Of a DNA stretch of 64,000 nt, positions 49,623 through 62,106 are shown one piece after another. The DNA comes from a bacterium (GTDB lineage: Bacteria > UBP4 > UBA4092 > JAOAEQ01). The DNA is taken from assembly GCA_026416715.1 (NCBI GenBank), contig JAOAEQ010000004.1, forward strand, positions 62,001 to 126,000. The letters run 5' to 3'. The number at the start of each line of letters is the position of its first letter. Positions within the stretch are counted from its first letter, which is position 1. Below the pieces are notes generated by a model, which had not been told where the DNA came from, ran no database searches, and saw nothing but the letters and a program-made list of their open reading frames with translations. Position numbers and translations under genes: made by a program.

Positions 49623-50084
49623 ATGACTGAATATAGTGCTTCGAAAAGAATTGGAGAGCTCCTCATCGAACAAAAACTGATTACGCCGGCTATTTTGGAA
49701 CAAGCACTTTCCCAGCAGCGGCAAGAATTAGTTCCGTTAGGGAAAATATTTATCCAGCTTGGTTGCGTTTCTGAAGACCAGTTAAACTCGGTTCTTGCTA
49801 GTCAGTTTGGATTAGTCTATCTTAACCCACGGTCATTTGTTTTACAGGATACATCGCTCCTTAATTTCATTCCGGAATCGCTCGCGCGACGTTTTGTTTG
49901 TTTTCCTCTCGAAAAGAAACATGGGACGCTGTTGGTGGTTATGGCTGATCCGTGGAATACCGATGCGATTAATGAGCTTACGAAAGTCACCCAATTAACT
50001 ATCCAACCGAAATTTAGTCGCCACGAATGGATTGAGCAAATCATTGATAAATATTATAATAGTCAGTGGCAGAAGAATAATTAA
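49623..50084 (+). CDS. Stand-alone MshEN / GspE N-terminal domain protein
   Basis: The 153-residue protein is essentially one MshEN domain: RIGELLIEQKLITPAILEQAL, then LGKIFIQLGCVSEDQLNSVLASQFGL, followed by the second half with VVMADPWNTDAINEL and the EWIEQIIDKYY end. In PilB/GspE/MshE ATPases this domain binds cyclic di-GMP or acts as adaptor; no ATPase follows here. The domain is closely similar to the N-terminus of the next gene, indicating tandem duplication. The ATG at 49623 is preferred to an upstream TTG. Confidence 0.8.
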   Translation: MTEYSASKRIGELLIEQKLITPAILEQALSQQRQELVPLGKIFIQLGCVSEDQLNSVLASQFGLVYLNPRSFVLQDTSLLNFIPESLARRFVCFPLEKKHGTLLVVMADPWNTDAINELTKVTQLTIQPKFSRHEWIEQIIDKYYNSQWQKNN

Positions 50085-50203
50085 TCGCAAAATATCTAGC
50101 CTAATCTCATTATAACCATAACCGAAACAAATTTGCAAAATAAACCATAGCAAATTTTACAGAGGAACTTTATAGCGTTATTCCATGCGATAATATTCGA
50201 ATT

Positions 50204-51727
50204 ATGGCAAAACAACTCGGTGAACTTCTTATTGAACAGCGGTTGATAACGAAAAGTATGCTTGAACAGGCGTTGGAGTTACAACAGCAGCGCCGGTTAC
50301 CATTAGGGAAAATCCTATTGCAACTGGGATATGTTACCGAGGAAGATTTGAATACTATCCTCGCGAAACAATTCGGGAGTATCTATATCAATCCGCGTGG
50401 ATTCGTTGTAAAAGATATTAACCTGTTAACCTTGATTCCAGAACCTATCGCGCGACAATATATCTGTTTCCCATTAGAAAAAAATGAAGAGCAGTTAACT
50501 GTAGCGATGTCTGACCCTTGGGATACCGACGCTATCCAGAAATTAACCGAATTAACGAAATTGACTATTCGTCCGATATTTAGTCGTCGGGAATGGATTG
50601 AACAGATTATCGATAAATATTATCCGACAGTGAAATCTAACGACCGTTCATTATCATCCGATACAATTACGGGGATTTTTCCCATAACCGCAGTCCCTGA
50701 ACCTAATGGCACTCAATCTAAACCTGTAGAATCTCAACCAATTTCCTCAAAAACTGATACAGTGATGGATATATCCACACCGCAGACTCCAGTTCAGCCA
50801 TCAGCGGCAGTTGTTCCGGATAAACGTTCATTGGATACCGAGCAAGCTCTGGATAAAGCGCAACTAGAATCGCTATCCCAGCAACCCAATGTTCCGCTGG
50901 GATTAACTCCATCTACTTCGACAGAATCGCACGTATCACCACAACCGCAACCGCATCTATCTTCTCCAGAACCGACGCAGATTCAGCCATCGCTATTAAC
51001 GAAACCGATACCCGAGTTTACTTTTGATAGTTTTGTCGTTGGGACTGGGAATCAACTCGCTTGGGCAGCAGCGAAAAATGTCGCTGAATCACCAGGTACA
51101 ACCTATAATCCACTCTTCATTTATGGCGGGGTCGGACTCGGCAAAACGCATCTGATGAACGCAATCGGCAATTTAATTCTGCAAAAAAATCCTCATAGTT
51201 TATTGGTATATATCCCCTGCACTCGTTTTATTGAAGAGATGATTACTGCGATTGCATCAGGAACAATCACTCCGTTCCGCCAGAAATACTGGCATCTGCA
51301 AGTTTTGCTCATTGACGATGTTCAGTTTCTCGCTGGTCAGGAACGAACCCAAGTCGAATTATTCCAGATGTTTGAAGAATTGCATCATCGTCGAGCACAA
51401 ATTGTTCTCACCAGCGACCGTCTTCCGAAAGATATCCCGCAACTCGAAGAACGACTTCGCTCCCGATTCGAAGGCGGATTGATTGTCGATGTCCAGATGC
51501 CGGATTTAGAAACGCGCATAGCGATTCTCCGCCGAAAAGCGATGCAACGGAATTTGCAGCTTCCGGATGATATCGCCAATGTCATTGCAACGTTCATCTC
51601 GACAAATGTTCGCGAACTGGAAGGGGTGTTGAATAAAATTAACGCAATTTCATCGCTCGGTGGCCGACCGATAACGATGCAGGTTGTTCAAAATATTTTA
51701 AGCGAAATGATTAAACAAGGTAGGTGA
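50204..51727 (+). CDS. MshEN-DnaA ATPase fusion without DNA-binding domain IV
   Basis: Residues 1-150 form an MshEN domain nearly parallel to the previous gene's product. A Pro/Ser/Gln/Thr-rich linker follows (about 150-265). From about 268 it is the DnaA AAA+ core: FTFDSFVVGTGNQLAWAAA, Walker A GGVGLGKTH (308-316), Walker B LLIDDVQFLAGQERTQ (about 367), LTSDRLPKDIPQLEERLRSRFEGG and the sensor-2 NVRELEG. The protein stops at 507, right after the lid; the helix-turn-helix domain IV that reads DnaA boxes is absent. It is not the replication initiator itself. A regulator of DnaA, or an ATPase delivered by MshEN to a membrane machine, is possible. Confidence 0.85.
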   Translation: MAKQLGELLIEQRLITKSMLEQALELQQQRRLPLGKILLQLGYVTEEDLNTILAKQFGSIYINPRGFVVKDINLLTLIPEPIARQYICFPLEKNEEQLTVAMSDPWDTDAIQKLTELTKLTIRPIFSRREWIEQIIDKYYPTVKSNDRSLSSDTITGIFPITAVPEPNGTQSKPVESQPISSKTDTVMDISTPQTPVQPSAAVVPDKRSLDTEQALDKAQLESLSQQPNVPLGLTPSTSTESHVSPQPQPHLSSPEPTQIQPSLLTKPIPEFTFDSFVVGTGNQLAWAAAKNVAESPGTTYNPLFIYGGVGLGKTHLMNAIGNLILQKNPHSLLVYIPCTRFIEEMITAIASGTITPFRQKYWHLQVLLIDDVQFLAGQERTQVELFQMFEELHHRRAQIVLTSDRLPKDIPQLEERLRSRFEGGLIVDVQMPDLETRIAILRRKAMQRNLQLPDDIANVIATFISTNVRELEGVLNKINAISSLGGRPITMQVVQNILSEMIKQGR

Positions 51728-61542: not shown

Positions 61543-62106
61543 CTAGAGTTTTACGAAATTGTTTAAAATCGGTTTTCCGACTTTCGTTAAGACCGATTCC
61601 GGATGGAATTGGACGCCCCAAATCGGGTATTGTTTATGCCGGAGTCCCATAATTTCGTTCTGGTCAGTCCAAGCGATGATTTCAAGCACCGGCGGTAATG
61701 TTTCTCGTTCAACGATGAGCGAATGATATCGCGTTGCTTCAAATGGATTTTCTATATTCTGGAATATCGTTTGTTCATTATGGTAAATCAAACAGGTTTT
61801 CCCATGCATTAATCGGTCAGCGCGTTTCACCACCCCACCGTAAACATAGCCGATACATTGATGACCAAGACATACACCAAGCGTCGGAATATTCGGGCTA
61901 ATCTCCCGCAGAATATCATTCGAAATCGCCGCTTCTTTCGGCGTTTTCGGACCAGGTGAAATGACAATTTTCGACGGGTTCAGTTTCCGAATGGTATCCA
62001 AATCTATCTTATCGTTGCGATAGACTTTAATATCCTGACCCAGTTCGCCAAGGTATTGAACGAGATTATACGTGAAAGAATCGTAGTTATCGATTACTAA
62101 TATCAT
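61543..62106 (-). CDS. trpG: Anthranilate synthase glutamine amidotransferase component
   Basis: TrpG supplies ammonia from glutamine to TrpE. The class I GATase shows MILVIDNYDSFTYNLVQYL, ISPGPKTPKEA, the nucleophile Cys in TLGVCLGHQCIGY, and the catalytic His/Glu in WGVQFHPES. 187 residues; the C-terminus KPILNNFVKL is normal for the family even though HEPN remnant sequence begins right at its stop. Confidence 0.96.
   Translation of the reverse strand: MILVIDNYDSFTYNLVQYLGELGQDIKVYRNDKIDLDTIRKLNPSKIVISPGPKTPKEAAISNDILREISPNIPTLGVCLGHQCIGYVYGGVVKRADRLMHGKTCLIYHNEQTIFQNIENPFEATRYHSLIVERETLPPVLEIIAWTDQNEIMGLRHKQYPIWGVQFHPESVLTKVGKPILNNFVKL

Follow-up and report, generated by a model that had tools for sequence, protein, structure and literature searches.

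A gene family joining an MshEN domain to a DnaA-type AAA+ core, with a possible role in type IV pilus control

Organisation of the locus

The window analysed here is a 64-kb stretch (positions 62001–126000 of contig C4) of the 2.96-Mb draft genome of a UBP4 bacterium, designated G000; all of its features described below lie on the forward strand. At 50204..51727, a 507-residue protein is encoded in which Pfam, NCBIfam and the predicted structure define an MshEN (GSPII) domain (residues 1–144, 50204..50635), a linker rich in Ser, Pro, Thr and Gln (residues 145–264, 50636..50995) and domain III of DnaA, comprising the AAA+ module and its lid (residues 268–501, 51005..51706). The MshEN family PF05157 is matched with 58.1 bits, above its Pfam cut-off of 23.1, and Bac_DnaA with 199.9 bits against a cut-off of 23; the match to Hda_lid is weak. 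The AlphaFold2 model contains two confident domains with pLDDT values below 50 across residues 143–264 between them, a segment regarded as disordered. Foldseek pairs the C-terminal part with domain III of Bacillus subtilis DnaA (8bv3), with a TM score of 0.92 by target length and 52% identity. Comparison of family profile A2 with known structures, in turn, matches its N-terminal part to Vibrio cholerae MshE (5htl; 1.4e-25), with PilB/PilF chains also found.

Immediately upstream, at 49623..50084, is a gene for a stand-alone MshEN protein of 153 residues counted from its ATG, scoring 58.0 bits in Pfam and 60 bits with the NCBIfam c-di-GMP motif profile NF053729. Its MshEN domain is 59–60% identical to that of the adjacent fusion, compared with 47% for the only other UBP4 fusion, that of genome G001, beside which no stand-alone MshEN gene was found. 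Because the copy is closer to its own fusion than the G001 fusion is, it is best regarded as a tandem duplicate, as the first-pass annotation had proposed, and the pair would most simply have arisen by local duplication after the G000 and G001 lineages split. Elsewhere in the genome (contig C17, L037 4818–7823), another stand-alone MshEN gene, of 269 codons, lies directly upstream of two PilT-like genes.

The c-di-GMP motif of MshEN domains consists of two 24-residue repeats separated by a five-residue spacer (PMC5013675). In the fusion, comparison with the consensus places motif I at residues 4–27 (QLGELLIEQRLITKSMLEQALELQ; 50213..50284) and motif II at residues 33–56 (PLGKILLQLGYVTEEDLNTILAKQ; 50300..50371), with exactly five residues between them. 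Both repeats retain L2, G3, L17, L21 and Q24. The deviations are Gln at position 1 and Arg at position 10 of motif I, the latter position being Arg or Lys in UBP4 where the consensus has Gly, and, in motif II, Pro at position 1. The extended consensus allows Arg, Lys or Leu at position 1, and the GSPII-C domain of Thermus thermophilus PilF binds c-di-GMP with a Pro at this position of its motif II (PMC11731258). The stand-alone copy keeps Arg at position 1 of its motif I (RIGELLIEQKLITPAILEQALSQQ; 49647..49718), with motif II following at 49734..49805. NF053729 is matched by the fusion with 57.5 bits against a cut-off of 38, and this cut-off is exceeded by both genes of the window and by six of the seven other fusions scanned, the exception being a copy from phylum f118. 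The genome has 11 GGDEF matches. Judged by these motifs, binding of c-di-GMP by the fusion is plausible, in keeping with the link to this second messenger drawn in the earlier annotation. It would not be universal in the family, since the fusion of genome G025 lacks the glutamines of both motifs and the copy from f118 falls below the profile cut-off.

Absence of the DNA-binding domain

Domains I and IV of DnaA are both missing from the fusion. With a profile made from domain IV of canonical DnaA proteins, no match was obtained in any of the six frames of the 64-kb window, nor in six frames at each of six homologous loci, whereas a positive-control locus was detected at 7e-47. A frameshift concealing domain IV downstream, the artefact against which the first-pass annotation had cautioned, is thus ruled out by the profile search together with the finding of the same architecture in other genomes; recurrence of this kind also means that the fusion is not a chance product. 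The profile scores, the structural model and the six-frame search together confirm a protein made up of an MshEN domain, a linker and domain III of DnaA, as had originally been read from the sequence; the AAA+ site of this domain is intact. A separate DnaA of 488 residues, complete with domain IV, is encoded on contig C19 of the same genome.

The AAA+ core as a branch of the DnaA family

The core is about 50% identical to domain III of the DnaA initiator and shares with it the fold seen in 8bv3, the Walker motifs, the sensors and the arginine finger. Alignment locates Walker A (GGVGLGKT) at residues 308–315 (51125..51148), Walker B (LLIDDVQF) at residues 368–375 (51305..51328), the arginine finger at residue 421 (51464..51466; Escherichia coli R285) and the sensor II arginine at residue 470 (51611..51613; E. 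coli R334). In E. coli numbering, the residues for catalysis and oligomerisation, K178, D235, D236, D269, R281, R285 and R334, are all kept, as is T179. Against these likenesses stand the loss of domains I and IV, the MshEN domain in front, the loss of Trp288 and a separate position in the tree, in addition to the host's possession of a DnaA of its own. The DnaA equivalog profile TIGR00362 is matched with 336.4 bits, narrowly under its cut-off of 343.9.

A FastTree analysis of 76 cores groups all those joined to MshEN domains or TPR repeats, together with those in tandem, in one clade (SH-like support 0.914), referred to here as orphan cores, which falls outside replicative DnaA, the DnaA of the host genomes and a set of paralogues with C-terminal extensions. 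A second tree from 235 alignment columns gave a similar split, with one tandem core nearer the canonical side. Several cores sit on long branches and the alignment is short, so that the exact topology is uncertain and the clade may be partly artefactual. None of the 17 orphan cores has the tryptophan corresponding to E. coli Trp288, which is kept in 44 of the 52 canonical DnaA proteins and in all six extended paralogues. The single clade and the missing tryptophan argue for a distinct branch of DnaA, and on the same two grounds we reject a recent origin of the fusion by duplication of the host's dnaA.

The lack of domain IV recalls Hda, itself a DnaA-type AAA+ protein without this domain. An Hda-like regulator of replication would insert its core among the DnaA subunits assembled at the origin, where it would promote ATP hydrolysis or cap the oligomers, with MshEN acting as a c-di-GMP gate. 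The identity of about 50% to the replicative domain III and the intact arginine finger speak for this reading, a Bac_DnaA search of the genome revealed no Hda, and a related tandem protein, from genome G106, starts with the clamp motif QLQLF. However, the Hda profile TIGR03420 gives 115 bits, far below its cut-off of 194.8, and the clamp motif is not conserved among the MshEN fusions: a loose QPSLL precedes the core in the G000 copy, and no clamp motif is present in G001 or the other MshEN fusions. Hda, moreover, has no counterpart to the MshEN domain, and the neighbours of the fusion in other phyla are pilus or motility genes. We consider this reading unlikely, although it deserves to be kept in mind. 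A third Bac_DnaA match in the genome, considered as a candidate Hda, was rejected; it is a DnaC-type loader ATPase.

A second alternative assigns the core to the handling of single-stranded DNA during pilus-linked DNA uptake: MshEN would provide docking to the motor of the pilus or competence system, and the incoming strand would be bound by the DnaA core through its initiator-specific motif. V211, K243 and R245 of E. coli DnaA are positions that contact ssDNA. Both UBP4 fusions have Ile in place of V211 and keep R245, which is compatible with such binding, and both genomes contain pilB-pilC-dprA-like neighbourhoods. Less favourable are the replacement of K243 by Gln in the G000 fusion and the loss of R245 in the short paralogues of phylum f150, where the 409- and 423-residue proteins have also lost the arginine finger. 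Furthermore, no comEA or comEC neighbour was seen, and dprA does not adjoin the fusion in the window. Altogether, DNA uptake appears quite improbable as the function.

The neighbourhoods in question are at G001 L048 170–4858 and G000 L041 1623–6502, which share the order pilB, pilC, a gene for 186 or 187 residues and a dprA-like gene (the last recognised by eye). On this gene order, the pilus motor is linked to a putative DNA-uptake gene in both UBP4 genomes.

Several further DnaA-type proteins were encountered. The G106 protein (contig C53, L107 4924–7017) has 697 residues, two tandem DnaA cores and no domain IV, and it begins MSAGNQLQLFL, with the clamp-binding motif placed as in Hda. TPR-repeat proteins of about 2000 residues, with a core of the orphan clade at the end, are encoded at G013 L050 6958–13356 and G300 L103 4480–9732; to the eye, the N-terminus of the former resembles a DnaG-type CHC2 zinc finger, with no Pfam match at 1e-6. 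The C-terminally extended paralogues are of a second kind, found in several genomes, in which a region of no recognised kind replaces domain IV (L108 6293–8155, L109 5932–7767, L110 3233–5362, L113 27–1679, L118 134–1996 and L156 964–3108); they keep Trp288, group with replicative DnaA and in several cases adjoin transketolase-like genes. Finally, a protein of 1746 residues in G025 (contig C145, L052 5512–10752) carries two very diverged DnaA-like ATPase domains, one N-terminal and the other near the C-terminus.

Relatives, gene neighbourhoods and a possible function

Searching for the architecture, as the first-pass annotation had suggested, revealed the same fusion in four small phyla: in both species sampled of UBP4 (G000 and G001), in all three of f26, in two of three of f150 and in all three of f118. 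Two of the three f118 fusions were recognised by eye, their N-termini resembling that of the Pfam-confirmed one, and the f118 protein is weakly MshEN-like at 33.5 bits. The G001 fusion, from a different family of the same class, has 519 residues and is 47% identical to that of G000. Among 386 diverse genomes, none outside these phyla gave a full-length match at E ≤ 1e-106. A second set of 385 genomes, of which at least those listed are the same as in the first, added no full-length match, and in the phylum to which G029 belongs none was found among 195 genomes, in a search that would miss diverged copies. The spread is therefore a lower bound, fusions as diverged as those of f118 falling near or under the survey thresholds.

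In all three f26 species, which belong to three genera, the fusion gene is directly upstream of pilB-pilT-pilS-pilR-pilC (checked with Pfam in G025), pilS and pilR being genes for a PilS-type kinase and a PilR-type regulator. In two genera of f150, a prepilin peptidase gene (pilD) is followed by a block of four genes for proteins with MshEN domains, DnaA cores or both. The block of genome G149 encodes proteins of 983, 436, 409 and 1993 residues. In Pfam, the 436-residue protein has MshEN alone, and in each of the other three MshEN is accompanied by a single DnaA core or by two. Beyond the block lie genes for TonB_C, T2SSE (pilB), pilT, T2SSF (pilC), a PilS-type kinase (pilS), pilT and pilR. 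In the f118 genome G254, the order is AAA_22 ATPase, MglB-like protein, MglA-like GTPase, DUF4388, fusion, DUF4388, with the MglB-like product scoring 73 bits with NF052242, under the cut-off of 200. In Myxococcus, MglA and MglB regulate polarity in motility driven by pili. That the fusion recurs near pil or Mgl-like genes in three of the four phyla suggests a connection with pili or motility, although proximity of genes is not in itself function.

The UBP4 loci depart from this pattern, as no pilus or Mgl gene adjoins the fusion in either genome. In the window, its neighbours encode a GDSL hydrolase, a cyclophilin-like protein and PheS; the neighbours in G000 and G001 are unrelated to pili and have none in common. 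These observations fit an explanation in which the protein of UBP4 has taken on an unrelated role, such as that of a transcriptional or metabolic regulator, so that the pilus link of its relatives does not carry over. However, the full architecture and the AAA+ residues are conserved, and the G000 fusion scores 616 bits with family profile A2, in which its own sequence forms one row; we regard such drift as improbable. A pilB-pilC pair lies about 6 kb from the fusion in G001, on the other strand, and G000 encodes several sets of PilB/GspE, PilC and PilT (pilC and pilT read by eye).

Because the MshEN–DnaA combination has been kept repeatedly in pil or Mgl clusters, we favour a c-di-GMP- and ATP-gated switch in the control of type IV pili or surface motility, rather than in replication, a reading to which we would give about an even chance. 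In PilB/GspE motors, MshEN is the motor-docking domain and, in those of the PilB type, acts as a sensor of c-di-GMP at the base of the pilus; the ATP-bound domain III of DnaA assembles end to end. c-di-GMP would bind the MshEN domain of the fusion and, in G000, also the stand-alone copy, and this would alter how the domain docks to a type IV pilus or T2SS-like machine at its base. The core, through the arginine finger and sensor II retained from DnaA, would provide a self-assembly switch controlled by ATP and ADP, and its assembly would switch on or off either the motor or the placement of the motor. More tentatively, and with somewhat less than even confidence, we propose that an ancient, separate branch of DnaA left replication to become a signal-gated assembly switch for pili or motility, with MshEN as its c-di-GMP input, and that the G000 protein is a member. 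We infer c-di-GMP binding, ATP-dependent assembly, a pilus partner and the same task in UBP4 as in the relatives. Of the uses envisaged in the first-pass annotation, a link to a membrane machine or a DnaA-like switch thus draws support from the pil operons and MglA/MglB-like genes of other phyla. Replication control gained no positive evidence: there is no conserved clamp motif, no domain I or IV and no adjacent replication gene, and the core did not arise recently from the host DnaA.

To our knowledge, DnaA has been regarded almost solely as the replication initiator, with Hda as its relative. The fusion shares with MshE, PilB, PilF and GspE the MshEN fold and the 24-5-24 layout of the c-di-GMP motif, but where those proteins have a T2SSE motor as their output module, it has a DnaA AAA+ core. 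The MshEN partners given in the main text of Wang et al. 2016 are REC, HD-GYP, CheA, CheX, cyclase and kinase domains, DnaA being absent (PMC5013675). Within the open-access literature searched, no paper was found on MshEN or the pilus in combination with DnaA. Each domain is known, and together they appear to make up an unrecognised family. If the favoured reading holds, the DnaA switch would have found a new use in a DnaA-type ATPase branch encoded within pilus operons, c-di-GMP would gain a new output, and pilus motors or polarity would gain a regulator; a fusion that acted instead on DnaA would connect c-di-GMP directly to replication.

A separate observation concerns the canonical dnaA genes. 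A motif scan of 1-kb flanks found no T2SSG-type gene beside the others that were fetched, the scan itself having missed the G013 case among the three that follow. A T2SSG-type pseudopilin gene lies directly after canonical dnaA in G000 (contig C19, L056 5978–6448; Pfam) and in G001 (L055 4588–5034), and the same arrangement, read by eye, occurs in G013, from another phylum (L051 8951–9421).
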